Assembly (NCBI RefSeq): GCF_025420485.1
Contig: NZ_JAOEFD010000015.1
Coordinates: 1-53,992 of the forward strand
DNA from: Nesterenkonia marinintestina
Lineage (GTDB): Bacteria > Actinomycetota > Actinomycetes > Actinomycetales > Micrococcaceae
Direction: 5' to 3'
Length of the DNA: 53,992 nt
Below, one piece after another: positions 39,747 through 52,274 of this stretch. Below the pieces are notes generated by a model that ran no database searches, was not told the DNA's origin, and was given only the letters and a program-made list of their open reading frames with translations. The stretch's first letter is position 1, and every line of letters begins with the position of its first letter. Position numbers and translations under genes: made by a program.

Positions 39747-40259
39747 CTAGTGGTTGATCACTGACATCAGGGCGAACAGGAGCAGACTGACGACGAGGAC
39801 CGCTCCGGTCGTAGGTATCACCGTCCACAGGCCGTGCAGCACACCCCTCCGGAATCGGCGGGTGACGGCCCAGGCCGCGGCGGTGCCGGGAAGCATCAGC
39901 ACGAGGAACGCCGCGCCGAAGAGTACGACCGCGGTGACGTAGTAGAAGGCGCCGACGGACTGCTCGTCGGCGTGGGCGAACACTCCGAGCAGCCCGGTGA
40001 GGCCGCTGAAGAGGACGAGCATGACGCTCACGAAGGCGACGGGCAGGAAGAGGACGCAGTAGAGCGTGATCGCCAGACCCCACGAGGGCCGCCCCCGTGT
40101 GGGCGGCGGCCACGGCTGATGCGCCGGAGCGGCGTGGTGCCCGTAGGGGTGCTCCGGCGGCACGTGGCCGGCCGGACCGTACCCCTGCGGAGCTCCCGGG
40201 GCTCCGACCCTCGGAGGGTGTGGTGGAGGCTGGGGCGGGACGGTCACCGCCCGACCCAT
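39747..40259 (-). CDS. small Pro-rich membrane protein, unknown function
   Basis: 170 residues. The first ~60 are Pro/Gly/His-rich and disordered (PPQPPPHPPRVGAPGAPQGYG). Then come three transmembrane segments, near residues 63-90 (LAITLYCVLFLPVAFVSVML), 105-130 and 145-168 (TTGAVLVVSLLLFALM). No family was recognised; the plan resembles proteins annotated DUF4190 or hypothetical. ATG at 40259 lies 16 bases inside the end of the M20 gene, so it is probably the last gene of that leftward operon. Confidence 0.65.
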   Translation of the reverse strand: MGRAVTVPPQPPPHPPRVGAPGAPQGYGPAGHVPPEHPYGHHAAPAHQPWPPPTRGRPSWGLAITLYCVLFLPVAFVSVMLVLFSGLTGLLGVFAHADEQSVGAFYYVTAVVLFGAAFLVLMLPGTAAAWAVTRRFRRGVLHGLWTVIPTTGAVLVVSLLLFALMSVINH

Positions 40260-41476
40260 TCGAGGATCCCCGTCAGGGCGGCGCGGGTTCCGGTGGTCAG
40301 CGTCGGCTCGATGACCGGGCCGAAGAACGGGGAATGGTTGACCGGCAGATCGTCACCGGCGCGGTCGAATCCGCCGAAGAACCAGAACACCGAGGGCACA
40401 TCGATGGCGGTGGCCAGCCGGCCGAAGTCCTCCGACCCCATGCGCGGGGGCCCGAGGGTCGCGTTCGCCTCGCCGAGGGTGCCCTGCAGAGCGTCCAGGA
40501 CCCGGTGGGCGGCGTCCTCATCGTTGTGGTTGACCGGGAAGTCGTACATCTTCTCGATGGTGGGCTCCGGCGCTCCCGAGGCCTCGGCCTCAGCCCGGAC
40601 GATCCGCTCCACGGCGGCCAGGACCTGTTCGCGGACGTCGTCCTCCAGGGATCGGATGTTGACCGTGAACTCGGCGCGGTCGGGGATGATGTTCTCCTTC
40701 AGCCCGGCGTGGAAGGTGCCCACGGTGACCACGGCGGACTTCAGCGGGCTGATCTCCCGCGCCACGATGCCCTGCAGGCGCATCACCACGGAGGCGCCCA
40801 GCACGATGGGGTCCACTCCGCTCTGGGGCTGCGAACCGTGGCTCTGTTCGCCGAAGACCGTGACCCGCAGCGAGTCGGCGGCCGCCATGGCGGGTCCGAG
40901 GGTCAGCTGCACGGTGCCGGCGCGGTCCGGCCACACGTGCTGGCCGAGCACCGCCTCGGGCCGGGGAGCCCGGTCCCACAGTCCGTCGTCGACCATCGCC
41001 TGAGCCCCGGCGCTGGTCTCCTCCCCGGGCTGGAAGATCAGGACCACGGTGCCGGACCAGGCGTCCCTCTCCCGCACCAGCAGACGGGCGGCGGTGACCA
41101 GTGAGGTGACGTGGGTGTCGTGACCGCAGCCGTGCATCACCGGCACATCGGTGCCGTCTGGGAGGGTCCCCCGGGCCTGCGAGGCGTACGGCAGTCCCGT
41201 GTCCTCGGCGATCGGCAGACCGTCGGTGTCCGCCCGGAATGCGATCGTGGGTCCGTCTCCGTTCCGAAGGATCCCGACGACGCCGGTGCCGCCGCAGCGG
41301 AAGTGCTCGACCCCGAGCTCCTCCAGCAGCTCCTCCAGCCGTTCGGCGGTGCGATGCTCCTGCATGGAGAGCTCCGGGTGGGCGTGCAGCTCCTTGTAGA
41401 GCTCCTCCATCTGCTGCTGCTCCTGGGCGTCCAGGGCGAAGCGGTCCATCGCGGACGGTGCGGCGGTCTCAGTCAT
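40244..41476 (-). CDS. M20 amidohydrolase (IAA-amino acid/hippurate hydrolase type)
   Basis: 410 residues, M20D subfamily, binuclear metal enzyme that splits N-acyl amino acids. The metal/catalytic segments are MHGCGHDTH (C117, H119, D120), QPGEET (E152, E153) and LGQHVWP; the last His ligand is in the C-terminal VNHSPFFGP. The lid domain shows TVFGEQSHGSQP and GLKENIIPD. SD GAGGAGGAG precedes ATG 41476. It lies directly downstream of two membrane protein genes of the same operon, suggesting intracellular hydrolysis of an imported N-acyl compound. Confidence 0.92.
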   Translation of the reverse strand: MTETAAPSAMDRFALDAQEQQQMEELYKELHAHPELSMQEHRTAERLEELLEELGVEHFRCGGTGVVGILRNGDGPTIAFRADTDGLPIAEDTGLPYASQARGTLPDGTDVPVMHGCGHDTHVTSLVTAARLLVRERDAWSGTVVLIFQPGEETSAGAQAMVDDGLWDRAPRPEAVLGQHVWPDRAGTVQLTLGPAMAAADSLRVTVFGEQSHGSQPQSGVDPIVLGASVVMRLQGIVAREISPLKSAVVTVGTFHAGLKENIIPDRAEFTVNIRSLEDDVREQVLAAVERIVRAEAEASGAPEPTIEKMYDFPVNHNDEDAAHRVLDALQGTLGEANATLGPPRMGSEDFGRLATAIDVPSVFWFFGGFDRAGDDLPVNHSPFFGPVIEPTLTTGTRAALTGILEWVGR

Positions 41477-41524
41477 GTCTCCTCCTCGGTGGGACGACGG
41501 CCCGTATCGGCCGCTGCTGTCGAT

Positions 41525-42262
41525 TCAATCCTGCCCGGCTTCCGGGGTCTCGGGGCGGTTCAGACGATCATCATGGGCCTTGTTGCGCAGGAACCATGAG
41601 GCGAGGATCGTCAGCAGGACCACGATGGCGACGCCGAAGGCGCCGACCGCCGGCACGAGCGGCACCAGTGCGAAGACGACGAAGAGGCTCGCCGCGGCCG
41701 CGAACAGGGCGCTGCGCGCCTGCTTCACCGTGATCAGCGCCTGCACGACGACGGCGCCCAGGATGCTCGGCAGGATGTAGAGCTGAGCCACCTCGATGAC
41801 GGGCTCGGGCACGACGGACAACAGCCACGTCCCGAAGATCCCGACGAAGAGCAGCAGGGAGACCACGTGCACCACTGCCGCACCACAGATGGCCATCACC
41901 GCCACCAGGTCGCCCTGCCGGCTGCCCGGCCGTACGGCCACCCGGTTCTGGGCGACGATCGCCGCCGGCAGCAGCTTGTTCGCGATGTTGCCGATCATGA
42001 ACGCCTGGTACATGGCCGCTTGGCCCAGTATGGGGAAGTAGGTGATGGGTTCCACGATGGCCAGCACCAGGTACACCGCGGCTACGGCCAGGTAGGCGGT
42101 GAGCAGCTGGTTGAAGGTGACGCCGAAGTCTCCGAGGATCAGCAGGAGGATCGGCGCGGCCAGTGAGGTGATGAGGACGGCGCTCATGGTGAGCCGACCC
42201 CATCGTGAGGTGGTGTGTTCGAACTGCTGCATCGCCTGGTCGGCGGTGGGTGCTGTGGTCAT
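41525..42262 (-). CDS. membrane protein, partner of DUF5058 gene
   Basis: 245 residues. Six or more transmembrane helices: near residues 25-45 (MSAVLITSLAAPILLLILG), 50-70, 120-145 (AVMAICGAAVVHVVSLLLFVG), 155-175, 190-225. Conserved-looking motifs are YFPILGQAAMYQAFMIGNIANKL, with polar residues in membrane regions. I do not recognise a named domain. It directly follows the DUF5058 gene (44-base gap, RBS AGAGGAG) and precedes an amidohydrolase, so a transport function with DUF5058 is inferred. ATG 42262 is chosen by the RBS; the frame remains open upstream. Confidence 0.7.
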   Translation of the reverse strand: MTTAPTADQAMQQFEHTTSRWGRLTMSAVLITSLAAPILLLILGDFGVTFNQLLTAYLAVAAVYLVLAIVEPITYFPILGQAAMYQAFMIGNIANKLLPAAIVAQNRVAVRPGSRQGDLVAVMAICGAAVVHVVSLLLFVGIFGTWLLSVVPEPVIEVAQLYILPSILGAVVVQALITVKQARSALFAAAASLFVVFALVPLVPAVGAFGVAIVVLLTILASWFLRNKAHDDRLNRPETPEAGQD

Positions 42263-42306
42263 CTCCGCTCCTCTGAGTGCGGGCCCGTGGTGGTCAGCGT
42301 CGGCGG

Positions 42307-43029
42307 TCAGCCGTGGTGGACGAAGTACGTGACGAACAGCCCCACGATGATGGCCAGTCCCAGCGCCCATTCCTTGAGCCATCCGATGTTCAGCTTCGTG
42401 GCGATGGCCATCAGCACGGCCATCACAGCTCCGGAGACCAGCACAGCGATGACGTGGATCCACGACTTGGGCAGCTCCATCGCGGTCAGGGCCATGAAGG
42501 CCGCCAGCAGTGCGGCCCCGGGGATGATGGTCATCGCGGCGGGGTTCACCCGCGACAGCTTGTTGCCGCCGCGCTTGAGCAGCGGGGTGAACAGCAGGGT
42601 GATCACCATCCATGCCGCACCGGAGAGGCACATGGCGAAGAACGCGACGACGAAGACCTGCTGGGTCCACTCCGGTCCGCCCAGGCTGGCCCCCATGGTG
42701 TCCGCGGCGATGGTCGCCGAGGCGGTCTCGGTGGCGGCCGATCCCACCAGACCGATGCGCATCAGCACTGCCGGCGTGCCGAAGAGGGTCAGCAGTGCGA
42801 TCGCGACGAGGACCACGGCCAGGGACGGCCCGACGGAGGCGACGGCGCCCGAACGGAAGGCGCGGTTGAGATCACCTCTGCTGATCCCGACGCCCTCTCC
42901 GGCGCGCTTCGCCGCGCGGACGTAGATCCAGGACTGGAGACAGATGATGCCGAACACGGCCAGGGCACAGATCCACAGAAGCGGAGACTGCGCGACCGAC
43001 CAGATGTCCGTCGATGTCGCAGGGTCCAT
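42307..43029 (-). CDS. DUF5058 family membrane protein
   Basis: 240 residues, about six or seven helices. The N-terminal part (SPLLWICALAVFGIICLQSWIYVRAAKRAG) and SVGPSLAVVLVAIALLTLFG match my knowledge of DUF5058, a family of uncharacterised membrane proteins usually encoded near peptidases. The ATG at 43029 is preferred because GGAAGG lies about 10 bases upstream; an ATG at 43047 is possible. First gene of a leftward operon, divergent from the carbamoylase by about 100 bases. Likely half of a two-part transporter. Confidence 0.72.
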   Translation of the reverse strand: MDPATSTDIWSVAQSPLLWICALAVFGIICLQSWIYVRAAKRAGEGVGISRGDLNRAFRSGAVASVGPSLAVVLVAIALLTLFGTPAVLMRIGLVGSAATETASATIAADTMGASLGGPEWTQQVFVVAFFAMCLSGAAWMVITLLFTPLLKRGGNKLSRVNPAAMTIIPGAALLAAFMALTAMELPKSWIHVIAVLVSGAVMAVLMAIATKLNIGWLKEWALGLAIIVGLFVTYFVHHG

Positions 43030-43133
43030 GAGAGTCGAACCTTCCATGATCGAGCCGGAGAAGTGGGTGGTGCCGATAAGTATTCTGAGTCACACCTGGC
43101 GGGAGCAAGGGATGGTGGAATACGACATGAAGA

Positions 43134-44426
43134 ATGGAGAAATCCACCAGGAGTTCCCAAGGAGGGGGCCGCTCTGCTTCTGTGGACGGTGTGATCGCAC
43201 CTTCAGCCGACCGTGTCCGTGAGGATCTCGCCGCCCTCGCACGGCTCACCGACTCGGCACAGCCCGGATGGACCCGCACCGCCCTGTCGGAGCCCGACGT
43301 CGCAGGGCGGGAGTCGGTCCTGGCTCGTATGCGTGAGGTCGGCTTGGACGCCCGCATCGACCCCGCGGGAAACGTCATCGGGGTCCGACGAGGCGCCCGG
43401 GGCGGGCGGATGCTGATGACCGGCTCGCACACCGACACCGTTCCCAGCGGAGGACGGTTCGACGGGATGGTGGGAGTCGTCGGTGCGCTCGAAGTCGTCA
43501 GAGCCTTCGACGAGGCGGGCATCCGGCTGGACCACGACCTGGTCGTCGTCGACTTCTTCGGTGAGGAGCCCAACCGCTTCGGGCTGAGCTGCGTCGGCTC
43601 CCGAGCGCTGACCGGCGTCTTCGACACCGCGATGCTCGACGTCCTGGACGAGGAGGGGCGGAGCTTCGGAGACGCGCTCGCCGCCGTCGGCATCGATCCC
43701 GCGACGATGATGGCGAGCACCTGGCCCTGGGACAGGGTCGACGCCTTCATCGAGCTGCACATCGAGCAGGGCCCGATGCTCGAGCACGCCGGGACGTCGA
43801 TAGGTCTGGTCAGCTCCATCACCGGGATCTCGCGCTTTCGGGCGCTCTTCGGCGGACGCCGGGACCACGCGGGGACGACCGGCATGGATCGCCGCGCCGA
43901 CGCGGGCTGTGCGGCCGCGGGGACGGTGCTCGCGGTGGAGCGGATCGCACGGTCGGGACCCGACGGGGCGAAGGGGACGACCGGCGGTGTCACGTTCACG
44001 CCCGCCGCGGTCAACGTGGTGACCGAGGCGGCCGAGATGCGCGGCGAGTTCCGCAGCATCGACGACGAGTGGCTGCGCACGGCTGAGGAGACCTTGGCCT
44101 CCTGCGCCGCGGAGGAGTCCGCCGGACGGGGCGTGACCGTCGAGATGGAATGGCTGCCTCAGGCGCCGCGGCGCCTGGACGGCTCCGTGACCGAGATGTG
44201 TCGCAGAGCCGTCGACGACCTCGGCCTGAGTCGCGCCGAACTCTTCAGCGGCGCCGAGCACGATGCCGCGTTCATCGCCGCACGCAGCCCGACCGCCATG
44301 CTCTTCGTCCCCTCCGTCGGGGGCCGGAGCCACTGCCCGGAGGAATGGACGGAGCTCGACGACGTGATCGACGGGATACGGGCCCTGGCCGAATCGCTGC
44401 GCCGCGCGGACGCGGTGCGGAGATGA
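43134..44426 (+). CDS. M20-type N-carbamoyl-amino acid hydrolase/allantoate amidohydrolase
   Basis: 430 residues from this ATG. M20 HyuC/AllC family: GSHTDTVPSGGRFDGMVG with His99, Asp101 and Asp110; FFGEEPNRFG with Glu144-Glu145; ELHIEQGPMLE; and GRRDHAGTTGMDRR. It removes carbamoyl or ureido groups from amino acids or allantoate. The start is uncertain: no good RBS precedes ATG 43134, and AAGGAGG lies 16 bases before an in-frame GTG at 43182. Divergent from the DUF5058 operon and followed by the amidase. Confidence 0.88.
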   Translation: MEKSTRSSQGGGRSASVDGVIAPSADRVREDLAALARLTDSAQPGWTRTALSEPDVAGRESVLARMREVGLDARIDPAGNVIGVRRGARGGRMLMTGSHTDTVPSGGRFDGMVGVVGALEVVRAFDEAGIRLDHDLVVVDFFGEEPNRFGLSCVGSRALTGVFDTAMLDVLDEEGRSFGDALAAVGIDPATMMASTWPWDRVDAFIELHIEQGPMLEHAGTSIGLVSSITGISRFRALFGGRRDHAGTTGMDRRADAGCAAAGTVLAVERIARSGPDGAKGTTGGVTFTPAAVNVVTEAAEMRGEFRSIDDEWLRTAEETLASCAAEESAGRGVTVEMEWLPQAPRRLDGSVTEMCRRAVDDLGLSRAELFSGAEHDAAFIAARSPTAMLFVPSVGGRSHCPEEWTELDDVIDGIRALAESLRRADAVRR

Positions 44427-44460
44427 GCGTGAGGAGATGAGCGTGAGGAGATGAGCGTGA
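44419..44460 (+). repeat. three tandem copies of a 14-bp unit
   Basis: GGAGATGAGCGTGA occurs three times without interruption, covering the carbamoylase stop and ending just before the amidase ribosome binding site; a partial fourth unit (GGAGGA) follows. Each unit contains an SD-like GGAG and an ATG. See findings. Confidence 0.95.
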
Positions 44461-44473
44461 GGAGGACACACCG

Positions 44474-45916
44474 ATGACACCCGGAGCGGCTTCCGACGGG
44501 CACGACCTCCTGGAACTCTCGGCAGTGAGGCTCGTGGACATGATGCGATCCGGCGACCTCTCCTCGCGGGAGCTCACCCAGGCCCACCTCGACCGCATCG
44601 CAGCCGTCGACGGGCCCCTCAACGCGGTGGTGACCCTGGATCCCGAGCGCGCACTGACCGAGGCCGCCGCGGCCGACGAGCGCCGGGCCTCGGGACACTC
44701 CCTCGGGCTCCTCCACGGTCTGCCGATGACGCACAAGGACACCCACGCGGTCGCCGGGATGCGGTCGACCTTCGGTTCTCCGCTGTTCGCCGACCACGTC
44801 CCCGAGACCGACGACCGGATCATCGCGCGCCTGAGACGCGCCGGTGCGGTCTCCACCGGCAAGACGAACGTTCCCGAGTTCGGAGCCGGCTCCCACACGT
44901 TCAACGAGGTCTTCGGGGTGACCCGGAACCCGTACGACACGGCAGTCAGCGCGGGAGGATCGTCCGGAGGCCTCGCCGCCGCACTCGCCGCGCGGATCCA
45001 GCCGCTCGGGGAGGGGAGCGACATGGGGGGATCGCTGCGGATCCCCGCCTCGTTCTGCAACGTCTACGGCTTCCGCCCCTCGCTCGGCGTCATCCCCTCG
45101 CACGGGGAGGCCCACCGGTCGGCATGGCTGGGCCGGCAGGGACCGATGGCGCGGAACGTGCGCGACATCCGGCTGTTCATGGCCGCATGCAGCGGCCCGG
45201 CCGACGGCCTTCCCGGTCTGCGGTCGATGTCCGGTGAAGAGTTCGCCGAGTCCGGGCCGGCGTCGCTGCGCGGGGTGCGGGTCGGAGTGACTCGGACCTT
45301 CGGCACCGAGATGCCTCTGCAGCCTGAGATGTCCGAGGCCGTGGATCGTGCGGCCGCGGTGCTCACCGAGCTGGGGGCCGAGGTCCAGGAGGTCGTCGTC
45401 GACCTCTCGGCGGCACAGGAGGTCTTCCATGTGGCGCGCGCCTTCGACTTCGCCGCGGCGTACGGGGAGTTCGTCCGCGCCTCGCCGGAGCAGGTGAAGG
45501 AGGAGGTTGTCTGGAACGTCGAGGAGGGGTTCGCACTGGACGTCCCCCGGATCATTCGGGCGAACGCGCTCTCAGCACAGCTGCAGGACGAGTGTGATCG
45601 TCTGTTCGACTCCTGCGACCTGCTCCTGAGCCCCGGGTGTCAGGTCGTCCCCTTCCCCGTGGAGCATCGGTACCCCGCGGAGGTCGCCGGCGTGCCGATG
45701 TCCACGTATCTGGGGTGGATGTCCTCGGCGACGATCCTGTCGGCGACGGGCCTGCCGACGCTGGCCGTCCCCGCCGGGTTCACAGCGACCGGGCTGCCCA
45801 CCGGGGTGCAGCTGTCCGCGCCGCACTACGGGGACGCGCTGCTGCTGCGCCGGGCGCAGGCCTATGACGAGGCCACGGAATGGCCGACCGTGGCTCCCGG
45901 GGCCTCGAAGAGCTGA
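44474..45916 (+). CDS. amidase (amidase signature family)
   Basis: 480 residues. The amidase-signature triad is visible: Lys88 in MTHKD, cis-Ser163 in GGSSGG, and nucleophile Ser187 in GSDMGGSLRIPASFC. It hydrolyses carboxamides to acid and ammonia; family substrates range from indoleacetamide to short aliphatic or aryl amides, so the substrate here is not predictable. AGGAGG lies ~8 bases before ATG 44474. It is cotranscribed with the upstream carbamoylase. Its last 55 bases overlap the convergent Lrp-type regulator gene. Confidence 0.92.
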   Translation: MTPGAASDGHDLLELSAVRLVDMMRSGDLSSRELTQAHLDRIAAVDGPLNAVVTLDPERALTEAAAADERRASGHSLGLLHGLPMTHKDTHAVAGMRSTFGSPLFADHVPETDDRIIARLRRAGAVSTGKTNVPEFGAGSHTFNEVFGVTRNPYDTAVSAGGSSGGLAAALAARIQPLGEGSDMGGSLRIPASFCNVYGFRPSLGVIPSHGEAHRSAWLGRQGPMARNVRDIRLFMAACSGPADGLPGLRSMSGEEFAESGPASLRGVRVGVTRTFGTEMPLQPEMSEAVDRAAAVLTELGAEVQEVVVDLSAAQEVFHVARAFDFAAAYGEFVRASPEQVKEEVVWNVEEGFALDVPRIIRANALSAQLQDECDRLFDSCDLLLSPGCQVVPFPVEHRYPAEVAGVPMSTYLGWMSSATILSATGLPTLAVPAGFTATGLPTGVQLSAPHYGDALLLRRAQAYDEATEWPTVAPGASKS

Positions 45917-46836
45917 CCGCCGCGTTTGCGGGCGCCCGCGACGACGGAGACCTCGACGGAATCGATGTCCTGCGCCCACTCCGACTCTGCGAGGTAGGTG
46001 TAGAGCGCCTGGGGGCCGCTGACGGTGATGTCGGCGACGAGCTGTGAGGAGCCCGCGATGGCGGCCACATAGCGGGCCTTGGGGTCCGCGGCGATGGCCG
46101 TGCCGACCTGGGGGACCCGATGCGGGGCGACCCGCAGCCACAGGAGCGCTTCGGTCCGCAGACCGGCGCGCTCGGGTTCGACCAGAGCGCGGAGATGCAG
46201 GCGATCCTCCGCGATCAGCGCATCGAGATGACGACGTGCCGTGGACTGTGAGGTTCCTGCCCGGCGGGCGAGCTCGTCGATGCTCGTCCGGCCGTCGTCC
46301 ACGAGGGAGCCGATGATCGCCTCATCGATCTCCGAGCCGCCCTCCGGGTGATGGGTCACGGGCATGGTGTCCTCATCTCCGAGCGAGAGGGCGCCGCGCT
46401 CGGAGTCGGAGAGCACGCCGAGCCGCCATCCCCGGATGGTCCGGAAGTAGTGCAGGATCGGAAGCGTCTCGGCGTGGGCGAAGCCGGGGGTGATGGAGGC
46501 GTCGAGCGAGTAGGGCCTCTCGGTCGCGGGGCTGAAGACCTCAGCGACGACGTCGTAGGCCCCGGCGAGCATGTAGCTGAACGTGACCTCGGGGCGCGTG
46601 GCCAGGGACTCGGCCGCTGTGGCGCGTGCGCCGGGATGGCACGTCCCCCTCAGCAGCATCGACGTCCCGGTGGTGCGCACCCCGGCGACCACGACGCTGC
46701 GGCGGGCCAGCAGCGTGCCGCCCCGTCTGGCGATCATCCGCTCGTTCTCCCCGAGGGCGGCGGCCACCCGACGCCAGCTGGCTCGGGGATCGCACTGGAG
46801 GGCCTCCGCGATCCGGAGTTCCAGGGGGTCCATCAT
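45862..46836 (-). CDS. double-length Lrp/AsnC family regulator
   Basis: 324 residues, twice the usual Lrp size: two tandem HTH-plus-ligand-domain units. The first HTH is near residues 3-48 (LELRIAEALQCDPRASWRRVAAALGENERMI), with its partner domain to ~140. The second HTH is near 168-215 (EIDEAIIGSLVDDGRTSIDELARRAGTSQSTARRHL), with a second AsnC-type domain ending near 305. Lrp proteins sense amino acids and control transport and catabolism. ATG at 46836 overlaps the upstream hydrolase stop (ATGA). It converges on the amidase and probably regulates the DUF5058/carbamoylase genes. Confidence 0.88.
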   Translation of the reverse strand: MMDPLELRIAEALQCDPRASWRRVAAALGENERMIARRGGTLLARRSVVVAGVRTTGTSMLLRGTCHPGARATAAESLATRPEVTFSYMLAGAYDVVAEVFSPATERPYSLDASITPGFAHAETLPILHYFRTIRGWRLGVLSDSERGALSLGDEDTMPVTHHPEGGSEIDEAIIGSLVDDGRTSIDELARRAGTSQSTARRHLDALIAEDRLHLRALVEPERAGLRTEALLWLRVAPHRVPQVGTAIAADPKARYVAAIAGSSQLVADITVSGPQALYTYLAESEWAQDIDSVEVSVVAGARKRGGQLFEAPGATVGHSVASS

Positions 46837-47675
46837 GATCGCCGCCCCGTCGGGCCGGTACGGTCGCCTGCGCCGCGCCGCGCCATGAACTCGGCGGTGC
46901 GCCGGGGCCAGGACCGCAGCTGCTCGGGGGTCTCGGCGACGTCCAGGGTGGAGTCGGGCAGCAGGCGGTGCAGCTCCTCCGCGGTGGAGAGCGGGTGGGC
47001 GGCGTCCTCGGTCCAGGCCAGCAGCTGACAGGGGACGTCGAGTCGGCGCAGACGCTCCGGGTCGGGCAGGTCGGTCAGGGCGGCCCCGCGGAAGACCGAG
47101 GGCAGCAGCTCGCGGGACACCGAGGGCATGGTCTCCTTGGTGCGATCGGCCTGGGCCGGCGGAGGCGGCATCAGCCGTCCCAGCCGGGCGAAGGCCGCGA
47201 CCCCCAGTGCCTCCACCATCCGCGCCGCCCGCCGATAGTCCTTCGCCTGTGCGGCCCGGGTCTCCCAGGCGGTCGGCGGGACCAGCAGCGTCAGCGAGGT
47301 GAACCGGTCCGGGTCCTCGAGTGCCGCGTACAGCAGAGTGGCCGCTCCCATGGACGGTCCGGCGGCGGCGACACGCTCGCCCGGGGCGACGACGTCGAGC
47401 AGCCCCAGCAGATCGGCCGCCAGCTGAGGCCACACGTAGTCCTCGGGGACCGGTCGGCCGGTGGAGCTCCCGTGCGCCCGTGCGTCGATGTGCAGGGTGC
47501 GCACCCCGTGGAGCTCCTGGGTCATGTCGAGTCCCGCGGCGCGCTCGCGCAGGGCGTGGGACGTCAGCCCGTGCAGCTGCACCACCGCGGGGCCCTCCCC
47601 GGCGCTCCGGCAGTGCAGCTGGGCACCGTCCGCCTGGTACATCCCCACAGGGGTGCTCCTCTCCGAGCCGCACAT
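46833..47675 (-). CDS. alpha/beta hydrolase
   Basis: 280 residues. The fold is clear: VVQLHGLTSHALRER (oxyanion loop), HIDARAHGSSTGRP, AAGPSMGAATLLYAAL with nucleophile Ser in GPSMG, then a mobile lid with MPPPPAQADRTK, LLAWTEDAAHPLSTAEEL (acid near ED) and the C-terminal region. The catalytic His should follow; none is obvious near the end of the sequence (VAETPEQLRSWPRR), so activity may be altered. Start ATG 47675 lacks a good RBS; ATG 47642, after GAGAGGAG, is an alternative. Translationally coupled to the Lrp gene and divergent from the condensation-domain gene. Confidence 0.83.
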   Translation of the reverse strand: MCGSERSTPVGMYQADGAQLHCRSAGEGPAVVQLHGLTSHALRERAAGLDMTQELHGVRTLHIDARAHGSSTGRPVPEDYVWPQLAADLLGLLDVVAPGERVAAAGPSMGAATLLYAALEDPDRFTSLTLLVPPTAWETRAAQAKDYRRAARMVEALGVAAFARLGRLMPPPPAQADRTKETMPSVSRELLPSVFRGAALTDLPDPERLRRLDVPCQLLAWTEDAAHPLSTAEELHRLLPDSTLDVAETPEQLRSWPRRTAEFMARRGAGDRTGPTGRRS

Positions 47676-47721: not shown

Positions 47722-49047
47722 ATGCGGCTGACCTCCGTGGCGAGGATGGGGACCCGGGCCGGACGGGTCACGAGCCTCCCGTTCATCGCTCTCCCACTGG
47801 ACGGTCCTGTCGCGTCCGAGGAGCGGCTGACGATCTCCTTCGACCAGGCACGCCACGTCGGACTCGGTCCGCGCCCCGGGTCATGGATGGCGGTGGCGCT
47901 GAGCCTGCCCGAGTCCGCGACCCGGCAGCAGATCGCCGAGGCCTGGTGCGCCGTCGTCGCCCGTCACCAGACCCTCCGGACCGTGTTCCTCCGGGACGGG
48001 CCGGACGCCGAGCTCATCCTCACCGAAGTCGACGTCGTCCCCGGCGACTGGCTCCCGCTCACCGACGGGGAGGTCGGGGCGGACGAGGTGCGTGAGGTCC
48101 TGCGGCGACACTTCGACGAGGTGTGCGAACCCTTCGCCCGCCCGTCGCACCGGCTCTGCCTGGTCGAGGCCCCGGATCGGCCCCCGCAGATCGTGGTCGG
48201 GGCCGACCACTCCCACGTCGACGCCTGGTCCCTGCTGCTGGCCCGCGACCTCACCGCCTGCCTGGCCGACGTCGTCGCCGGTCGGAGTTCCATCGGTGGC
48301 GACCTCCCCGCCGCCGAACCGTTCTCCGCACACACGGCGATGCTCGAAGCGCGCACAGATCCTCCGTCCGAGGTGGTGAGCCGCTGGGGCGAGATCCTCC
48401 GTGCCGGCGGGGACGCGATGCCCACCTTTCCGCTGCCCCTGGGCGACCTGAGCAGCCCGCGGGATCAGGTGATGCAGGTCTGCGACGTCGTCGACGCCGA
48501 GGAGCTCGGTCTGTTGGAGGCCTACGCCTCCGACCACGGGGTGCGGCTGCTCAGCGTCGCGATCTCCGCGCTCACCCGGCTGAGCCTCGACGGTGCGGGG
48601 CAGCCGCTGCGTGCAGTCTTCCCCGTGCACAACAGGGAGGACCGGCGCTGGTTCGACTCGGTGGGGTGGTTCATCACCAACGCCGTCCTGGAGAACGGCG
48701 ACCCGTCGTTGGAGTCGGCGCATCGTGCGGTCAGGGAGTCGATCCGGCTGGGCTCGACGCCGCTGACGCCGATCATGCGACCCTATGGCGGGATGCCGGC
48801 GGCGCCGGGGATGTTCGCGATGTCGTGGCTCGATCAGCGGCGCCTGCCCGTCGCTGTGGACGAGAGGCTGGACACCCAGCACGTCTCCGCCGTGATCCGC
48901 ACCGACGGCGTGATGATCTGGTTCGTGGTCAACGGTCGGGGCCTCCACCTGCGCTGCCGCTACCCGGACACCGAGGAGGCGCGGTCGACCGTCCCGACGT
49001 GGCTGGCAGATGTGGTGACCGAGATGCGGTCTCCCATGAAGGGCTGA
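47722..49047 (+). CDS. stand-alone condensation-domain (NRPS/PapA-like) protein
   Basis: 441 residues. The chloramphenicol-acetyltransferase-like fold of NRPS condensation domains and PapA acyltransferases is indicated by AVVARHQTLRTVFLRDG (residues 78-93), the active-site region VGADHSHVDAWS (160-170) and DSVGWFITNAVLEN in the second half. The HHxxxDG motif is changed to D162-H163-S-H-V-D167-A: the catalytic second His and the Asp remain, the first His does not. No adenylation or carrier domain lies nearby, so it probably transfers acyl or aminoacyl groups in trans or forms amides or esters. Leaderless start likely. Confidence 0.82.
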   Translation: MRLTSVARMGTRAGRVTSLPFIALPLDGPVASEERLTISFDQARHVGLGPRPGSWMAVALSLPESATRQQIAEAWCAVVARHQTLRTVFLRDGPDAELILTEVDVVPGDWLPLTDGEVGADEVREVLRRHFDEVCEPFARPSHRLCLVEAPDRPPQIVVGADHSHVDAWSLLLARDLTACLADVVAGRSSIGGDLPAAEPFSAHTAMLEARTDPPSEVVSRWGEILRAGGDAMPTFPLPLGDLSSPRDQVMQVCDVVDAEELGLLEAYASDHGVRLLSVAISALTRLSLDGAGQPLRAVFPVHNREDRRWFDSVGWFITNAVLENGDPSLESAHRAVRESIRLGSTPLTPIMRPYGGMPAAPGMFAMSWLDQRRLPVAVDERLDTQHVSAVIRTDGVMIWFVVNGRGLHLRCRYPDTEEARSTVPTWLADVVTEMRSPMKG

Positions 49048-50924: not shown

Positions 50925-52274
50925 TCAGTCGGTGAGGAGCCGGTCCGGGTCGACGACGACGACCTGCCGGTCGTCCCGCTCCAGGCGCCGGACCAGCTCG
51001 CGGATCATCCGCACGCCGGCCCCGGAGATGGAGTCGACCCGGGCGAGGTTCAGCTCGATCTGCTCCAGCAGCTCGGCCGACTCCCAGGCGTCGACCACCG
51101 CGCGCAGCGTGCGCTCGGCGCCGGAGAACCGCAGGGTTCCCTGCAGCACGACCTTCGTCCGCAGTCCCATGGGCGGAGCGCCGTCGTCGGGCAGGACCGC
51201 ATCCCCGGGGTCGCCTCCGTCGCCGACGGTGCCGTCGTCGGTGGCCGGCATCGTGGTGTCGTCCACCGTGCCGATCCATCGCACGGCCGTGTTCGACGGC
51301 TGCTCGTTGCTCATCAGGTGCAGGCCCATGTCGGCGGAGAGGCGCTGGAACATCTGCACGCCCTGCACCGAGTTGCCGACCTCGTCGAGCCGCGGGGAGA
51401 AGCTCGCCAGGCCCACCTGTCCCGGCAGGACCCCGATGATCCCCCCGGAGACGCCCGACTTCGCCGGGATGCCGATCTGGGCCAGCCAGCGGCCGGATCC
51501 GTCGTACATCCCGCAGGTCGCCATCACCGACAGCGTCTGTCGGGCGGCGGTGGGAGAGACGACCCGTGCGCCGGTGATCGGGTTGGTCCCCGAATTGGCC
51601 AGGGTGGCGGCCATCAGGGCGATGTCGCCGACCGTGACCAGTGCGGAGCACACGTCGATGTAGCCCCGGACGGCTTCGGCCGGGGGATTGGTGATGATGT
51701 CGTGGTTGCGCAGCATGTGTGCGATAGCCATGTTGCGGTGCGCGGAGGCGAACTCGTCGTCGGCGGTGTCATAGTCGATGTCCAGGTCCCGTGCGGCGAA
51801 GGCGGAGAGGCCGCCGAGGACCCGGGCGACACGGCGTCGGACCCCTTCGGTCCTGTGCTCCTCAGAAGGGGAGGCCGGGTCCGGCTCCCAGACGTCGGTG
51901 CGCACCAGCTGGTGGGAGGCGATGGCGCCGGCGTTGATCATCGGATTGTAGGGACGGCCCGTACCGCCCTCCAGTGACATCTCGTTGAAGGCCTCGCCGG
52001 AGGGCTCGACGCCGACGGCCTCCAGCACCCGGTCCAGACCGATGTCGTCGATGGCCAGGGCGTAGACGAAGGGCTTGCAGATCGACTGGATGGTGAACTG
52101 ATGGTCCCGCCCTCCGACGTCATAGACCGAGCCGTCGACGGTGCTGATGGCCAGGGCGTGGACGTCCGGGTCCGCCGAGGCCAGCTCGGGGATGTAGTCT
52201 GCGACGTGCCCGGAGCGGTCCGAGGAGCAGGCGTCGAGGACCTCGTCCAGGTAGTCGGGGATCGGTGAGCGCAA
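50925..52274 (-). CDS. glsA: glutaminase with C-terminal STAS domain
   Basis: 449 residues. The N-terminal ~300 residues are a serine-dependent beta-lactamase-like glutaminase: FTIQSICKPF with Ser64-x-x-Lys67, EPSGEAFN, GRPYNPMINAGAI, NMAIAHMLRN and GIPAKSGVSGG. An acidic Asp/Gly linker (345-370) leads to a STAS domain (370-449, TLRFSGAERTLRAVVDAWE to EQIELNLARVDSISGAGVRMI). It hydrolyses glutamine to glutamate and ammonia; the STAS part may be regulatory. Glutaminase-STAS fusions exist in other actinobacteria. Divergent from dnaB. Confidence 0.93.
   Translation of the reverse strand: MRSPIPDYLDEVLDACSSDRSGHVADYIPELASADPDVHALAISTVDGSVYDVGGRDHQFTIQSICKPFVYALAIDDIGLDRVLEAVGVEPSGEAFNEMSLEGGTGRPYNPMINAGAIASHQLVRTDVWEPDPASPSEEHRTEGVRRRVARVLGGLSAFAARDLDIDYDTADDEFASAHRNMAIAHMLRNHDIITNPPAEAVRGYIDVCSALVTVGDIALMAATLANSGTNPITGARVVSPTAARQTLSVMATCGMYDGSGRWLAQIGIPAKSGVSGGIIGVLPGQVGLASFSPRLDEVGNSVQGVQMFQRLSADMGLHLMSNEQPSNTAVRWIGTVDDTTMPATDDGTVGDGGDPGDAVLPDDGAPPMGLRTKVVLQGTLRFSGAERTLRAVVDAWESAELLEQIELNLARVDSISGAGVRMIRELVRRLERDDRQVVVVDPDRLLTD

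Follow-up and report, generated by a model that had tools for sequence, protein, structure and literature searches.

A locus at positions 39747–47675 of a 53,992-nucleotide contig from Nesterenkonia marinintestina (NZ_JAOEFD010000015.1; this whole stretch is called the window) raises the question of what two small membrane proteins do when they are encoded beside three different carbon–nitrogen bond hydrolases. The first protein (42307–43047, reverse strand) belongs to the family DUF5058; its partner (41525–42262, reverse strand) has 245 residues and lies directly downstream. The answer favoured here, with a probability of about two in three on the sequence evidence, is that the pair is a two-subunit secondary importer of N-acylated amino acids, which a co-encoded enzyme would hydrolyse inside the cell.

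The two genes lead a leftward operon that continues with an M20D aminoacylase of the AgaA clade (40244–41476) and a 170-residue protein (39747–40259). A hydantoinase/carbamoylase-type M20 amidohydrolase (43134–44426, forward strand) and an amidase-signature hydrolase downstream of it (44474–45916, forward strand) point away from this operon. Pfam and NCBIfam scans found no ATPase or binding protein among the window genes at 39747–47675, and the pair is not assigned to the ATP-binding cassette or other binding-protein-dependent transporters, since its operon lacks both components. The original prediction, made from the letters of the DNA, had proposed a co-encoded two-protein membrane module of this kind, and the operon bears it out.

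In the proposed mechanism, DUF5058 and its partner would each supply one subunit of a secondary importer that draws on an ion gradient to take up N-acylated or otherwise N-blocked amino acids. In the cytoplasm, the M20D enzyme would split what has been imported, releasing an amino acid and an acid. With the divergent carbamoylase and amidase the range might also take in N-carbamoyl compounds and amides, and a double-length Lrp/AsnC protein may control the locus, possibly by sensing the released amino acid.

Pairing of DUF5058 with its partner

The pairing of the two membrane proteins is near-obligate. Fifty loci were examined (given here by their labels in this analysis). Two of them, L097 and L098, derived from weak DUF5058 matches in genomes G103 and G470 and had neither protein by profile; the same was true of L020, where 46 residues lie at a contig end. 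G509, a weak match with an internal stop, was left out, and L010, which is the same place as L088, was counted once. The partner lies directly downstream of DUF5058 in 47 of the 48 fetched loci, and in the 48th the contig ends 116 bases further on. All 45 measured pairs are on the same strand, with 10–156 nt between the matched stretches.

Genome-wide counts agree. Among 299 Bacillota genomes, DUF5058 scored over the cut-off in 23 and the partner in 24, the 23 all falling within the 24; for the additional partner, the contig breaks off at the place expected for DUF5058. In 58 relatives the figures are six and seven, the extra one again cut by a contig end, and in 72,556 plasmid records both proteins occur in the same 12. 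The original prediction had suggested searching for this co-occurrence; the search returned the pairing in nearly all loci. Tree distances of the two proteins also correlate (r 0.947 over 46 loci; none of 1000 permutations as high).

Some copies are damaged. The partner is interrupted by stops or fragmented in L027 (two frames) and L114, and DUF5058 in L069 and L117, the last located among transposases. A 248-residue frame in L126 (genome G540, contig C17, 2867–3610, forward strand) shows a weak two-stretch similarity to the partner (7e-5) and has no DUF5058 match; it is perhaps a distant relative of the partner.

Taxonomic distribution and linkage to M20 enzymes

DUF5058 is not common: besides the six of 58 relatives, three of 296 Actinomycetota genomes carry it over the cut-off, the window genome included, and none of the 296 outside the window's own order does. 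It was also found in Bacillota, a Cetobacterium metagenome-assembled genome, Paracoccus, six haloarchaeal plasmids and, as a broken copy, Vibrio. Among named relatives the closest one found is Sediminivirga luteola (Brevibacteriaceae), which has the pair, the M20D enzyme, the amidase and the double Lrp protein at 64–75% identity. Brevibacterium is probably a genus close to the window's own.

Linkage to M20 enzymes was measured with a profile whose training set was the M20 enzymes of the loci themselves. It places an M20 gene close to the pair in 38 of 47 loci; adding nine plasmid loci and the window makes this 47 of 57, or 32 of 41 clusters at 80% identity. The count of 57 leaves out L069 and L117 (broken DUF5058), the Paracoccus records H5 and H7, and L111 and L112, which hold the partner only, at contig ends (an M20 gene is present in L112, none in L111). 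Across the 47 loci (668 kb), no match to the M20 profile lies more than 1.3 kb from the pair; in the whole window genome (2.58 Mb, 37 contigs) there are 12 M20 matches.

The class of M20 enzyme, as assigned by the authors, tracks the tree of the pair and differs by clade. Actinobacterial loci have an AgaA-clade M20D, except L095; elsewhere the enzyme is another M20D, a long M20D, an anchored M20, a carbamoylase, or a PepT-like or glutamate-carboxypeptidase-like enzyme. Since the pair and its M20 linkage recur in other phyla, the arrangement is more than chance. Within the locus, the combination of the pair and an M20 enzyme varies less than the rest. A lack of conserved linkage between the membrane pair and amidohydrolases had been named in advance as grounds for abandoning the transporter proposal; the linkage is seen in Actinomycetota, Bacillota, the Cetobacterium metagenome-assembled genome, Paracoccus and haloarchaea.

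Sequence and fold of the two membrane proteins

The DUF5058 protein matches PF16481 over profile positions 2–222 of 222 (3.4e-64; 216.9 bits against a cut-off of 28.2), so it is a full member of that family. Simple hydropathy gives it about six hydrophobic segments, and Q38, P74, P92, R97, E107 and W223 are conserved across 47 aligned sequences. Its translation probably begins at the ATG at 43029, which is preceded by GAAGG and at which the relative in L009 starts. The partner has five or six hydrophobic stretches by the same measure, with E71, Y75, P77, Y85, N92, N95, P99 and P165 conserved in 46 aligned sequences. It matched no Pfam or NCBIfam model and deserves one. Two co-encoded hydrophobic proteins with conserved charged or polar residues, and with neither an ATPase nor a binding protein, fit a two-subunit ion-coupled importer.

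The same conserved E, R, N and Y residues in hydrophobic proteins would also suit a membrane-embedded amidase or peptidase acting in series with the soluble enzymes. This is highly improbable: no His, Asp or Ser is conserved at 80% or above and no Cys at 90% or above, and no Pfam peptidase is common to the members among the matches listed, where M50 comes up weakly (0.12) in one of 47 members.

Profile comparison found no kinship between DUF5058 and its partner. When PDB sequences were searched by profile, DUF5058 gave a single match (E 0.7) and the partner none. The listed Pfam and PDB-sequence matches contain no known transporter or enzyme family common to the pair members; membership of such an unrelated family was the other outcome that would have counted against the proposal. 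Neither DUF5058 nor PF16481 is named in the literature searched.

Importer, exporter or scaffold

Several observations weigh against the importer. The pairing has irregularities: genome G351 has three partner copies and two DUF5058 genes, and at L125 (G351 contig C110, 2–691, reverse strand) the partner lacks an upstream DUF5058 and is truncated at its downstream end by the edge of the contig; this copy leaves the genome counts as they are. Plain shared descent also gives correlated tree distances. AlphaFold models built with 12 sequences each are of low confidence (mean predicted local distance difference test scores 59.9 and 55.0), and Foldseek searches of the PDB with both models gave nothing at E ≤ 0.001; with such models and no match, a transporter fold is neither shown nor excluded. 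Ten of the 57 loci have no M20 gene nearby. L091 and L094 among these end at contig edges, L114 has the fragmented partner, L084 has a Xaa-Pro-dipeptidase-like amidohydrolase and L086 an M42 aminopeptidase, but in L011, L088, L074, L081 and L087 no recognised peptidase or amidohydrolase was found in the part of the neighbours that was scanned. The M20 profile, being trained on the same loci, may also miss other M20 types farther away. Finally, the linkage would fit an exporter, a sensor or a membrane enzyme too. (The frames upstream of the lone partner at L125 include one that, read by eye, resembles the tail of a PucR-type regulator.)

An exporter or exchanger would remove the product of the hydrolase, a carboxylic acid or an amino acid, and leave import to another permease. 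The M20 linkage accommodates this equally, and other transporters do lie near some loci: a major facilitator superfamily (MFS) gene and BenE at L025, glutamine ABC genes at the Paracoccus locus L116, and Gly_transporter at L115 and L119. In the part of the neighbours that was scanned, no other permease came up repeatedly, and the exporter is considered unlikely.

In six loci (L067, L076, L077, L078, L079 and L083) Arg/Lys follows a hydrophobic stretch at the N terminus of the M20 enzyme encoded behind the pair. By the positive-inside rule, basic residues after a hydrophobic stretch place the enzyme on the cytoplasmic side, which suggests that these six are membrane-tethered cytoplasmic enzymes and counts in favour of the importer; gene starts were taken as predicted, and L078 also has basic residues before the stretch if its longest start is used. 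Such apparently anchored enzymes, like the pairing and the M20 linkage, can be accommodated by a pair that serves as a membrane sensor or scaffold, anchoring or controlling the hydrolase rather than transporting. No signalling domain is present among the Pfam matches listed, though, and separate regulators (double Lrp, PucR-type, LysR) stand beside several loci, which makes a sensor or scaffold quite improbable.

Substrate hints from the hydrolases of the window

If the pair is an importer, the neighbouring enzyme would reveal its substrate, clade by clade: an AgaA-like aminoacylase in the relatives of the window, in haloarchaea an AbgA-like enzyme with glycine cleavage genes nearby, and a tethered M20 in some Bacillota. 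The window M20D enzyme matches PF01546 (7e-31) and belongs to the TIGR01891 family (272.7 bits, cut-off 153.75). Its best PDB match is AgaA (6slf, 2.1e-94), with 44% identity (168 of 380 aligned residues). Residue roles in AgaA, including contacts of E140, D340, D301 and N191 with the glutamine side chain, have been described (PMC7209930). All five zinc ligands (C105, H107, E141, H168 and H370) and the carboxylate-binding residues N251 and R264 are kept in the window enzyme. Among the glutamine contacts, E140 and D340 are kept, whereas D301 is replaced by Tyr and N191 by Ser, and five of the six acyl-pocket residues other than H168 differ. With two glutamine contacts changed, the enzyme is not assigned to the N-alpha-acyl-glutamine aminoacylases. 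The AgaA combination at D301 and N191 occurs in none of the 30 M20 rows compared (the window's included; those scoring 1e-60 or better), so an aminoacylase is claimed here and not a glutamine-specific one.

The carbamoylase-type enzyme has PDB relatives and scores over the cut-off of TIGR01879 (300.4 bits against 204), which makes it a member of that family. Its closest NCBIfam model is the ErtE N-carbamoyl-L-glutamate amidohydrolase (NF058540), to which it was not assigned, at 449.3 bits against an equivalog cut-off of 520. The window thus shares its carbamoylase family with hydantoin and carbamoyl-amino-acid utilisation, but no D-hydantoinase over the cut-off was found in the window genome (best 194.2 bits against 393.25), and a hydantoin pathway is not supported. 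The amidase is a member of PF01425 (5.1e-105; 352.5 bits, cut-off 27). The catalytic triad of amidase-signature enzymes is Lys-Ser-Ser, and in an alignment to GatA its motifs are kept at positions 87, 161 and 183.

The original prediction had assigned a single substrate to all three hydrolases. In the stretches compared, the amidase occurs without the carbamoylase in L009, L023 (two frames) and L024, and the carbamoylase without the amidase in L026, while the window has both; one substrate for the three is therefore unlikely. Of that prediction as a whole, the membrane pair linked to amidohydrolases has held up and the shared substrate has not, nor have two flanking genes as parts of the system (39747–40259 and 46833–47675, below); the transport role it proposed is still inferred.

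Other pair loci add observations of their own. The window genome's second pair (L021, contig C35) likewise has an AgaA-like M20D and adjoins LamB/YcsF, CT_C_D, CT_A_B and biotin carboxylase genes, which we take to be parts of a 5-oxoprolinase; a Gate-family protein lies on its other side. In L025, from the same genus, a BenE-type benzoate transporter, the MFS gene and a distant double Lrp gene lie beside the pair and its M20D, the transporter neighbourhood hinting at aromatic acyl groups.

Haloarchaeal loci

On haloarchaeal plasmids (L115/L124, L118, L119, L120 and L122), DUF5058, the partner and an M20 gene lie near glycine cleavage, lipoyl, serine hydroxymethyltransferase or RidA genes. Five of the six haloarchaeal loci are near genes annotated as glycine cleavage, dihydrolipoyl dehydrogenase, lipoyl synthase or serine hydroxymethyltransferase; within 20 kb of the sixth, in Halalkalicoccus, no such gene was found. 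Four of the six have genes annotated as TRIC channels nearby, and the two such genes that were scanned (L115 and L119) match Gly_transporter (PF03458), presumably the UPF0126 family. Mutant fitness data tie UPF0126 to glycine use (PMC12173739). The one haloarchaeal M20 enzyme tested is closest in the PDB to an aminobenzoyl-glutamate utilisation protein (3io1, 6.6e-88). A substrate that releases glycine would fit, and so would folate-fragment salvage.

Relation to known systems

The design of a dedicated importer with its own hydrolase is already known; what would be new here is a two-protein importer of a kind not described before. In the AbgABT system for uptake and hydrolysis of p-aminobenzoyl-glutamate in Escherichia coli, M20 hydrolases are likewise encoded together with a transporter of their own, AbgT. 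This is one large permease, and an AbgT model is not among the Pfam matches listed for the pair members. AbgA/AbgB hydrolyse what AbgT imports (PMC5082436). Given that function of AbgT and the AbgA-like haloarchaeal M20, the pair occupies the place in which one would look for a dedicated importer.

A similar arrangement exists in E. coli YjiH/YjiG, two small proteins (YjiG annotated as Gate family) that are co-encoded with the isoaspartyl dipeptidase IadA. Kinship with YjiG or YjiH was rejected at an hhalign probability of at most 1.6%, single E. coli sequences being used, and no Gate match appears among the Pfam matches listed for the 46 and 47 pair members. By the tests made, the locus is a member of neither AbgABT nor YjiGH–IadA.

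The odds are about even that, in bacteria and haloarchaea alike, the pair represents a previously undescribed family of secondary transporters made of two subunits, with no detectable kinship to known transporters and with each clade matched to its own hydrolase. Uptake of odour precursors, which are N-acyl amino acids, by axillary corynebacteria is a step called unknown in one review (PMC7209930), and the bacterial transport protein for the N-acyl-glutamine substrates of AgaA is so described in two (PMC7209930, PMC12609316). If the importer reading is right, N-acyl amino acid uptake would gain its first candidate family, one confined, among the Actinomycetota genomes scanned, to the order of the window. 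A DUF family, an unannotated partner and clade-consistent hydrolases together turn two hypothetical proteins into a testable candidate importer with substrate hypotheses.

Regulation

The double-length Lrp/AsnC gene (45862–46836, reverse strand) encodes an AsnC-type helix-turn-helix and a ligand-binding domain, each model matching in two stretches, and overlaps the amidase gene tail to tail at 45862–45916. Its relatives in L009, L023 and L024 are 62–65% identical by blastp. A double-length or distantly similar Lrp protein is encoded near seven of the 11 non-plasmid actinobacterial two-protein loci examined, the window included (also L009, L023, L024, L025, L027, by blastp only, and L096). Regulation of the locus by this protein is plausible. 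A five-locus alignment upstream of DUF5058, inspected for a common operator, shows little beyond the ribosome-binding region and the coding start.

Other genes of the locus and its surroundings

The gene list and gene places of the original prediction were all confirmed in the sequence: the eight genes are open frames at the positions first named, with third-position G+C of 0.86–0.91, compared with 0.90–0.95 in three neighbouring genes. Two of the eight are probably not part of the conserved system, into which they had been drawn, as neither gave a blastp match in the relatives searched. One is the small membrane protein of 170 residues (39747–40259, reverse strand), proline-rich and then hydrophobic, which has no Pfam or NCBIfam match and whose gene overlaps the end of the M20D gene. 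The other is the alpha/beta hydrolase (46833–47675, reverse strand), known from weak abhydrolase family matches, whose gene overlaps the start of the double Lrp gene.

Adjoining the alpha/beta hydrolase gene is a gene for a 441-residue protein (47722–49047, forward strand) whose one match, a weak one, is to a stand-alone Condensation domain (2e-4, below the cut-off). A few genes from the aminoacylase operon, at 50925–52274 on the reverse strand, the window encodes a glutaminase with a C-terminal STAS domain.

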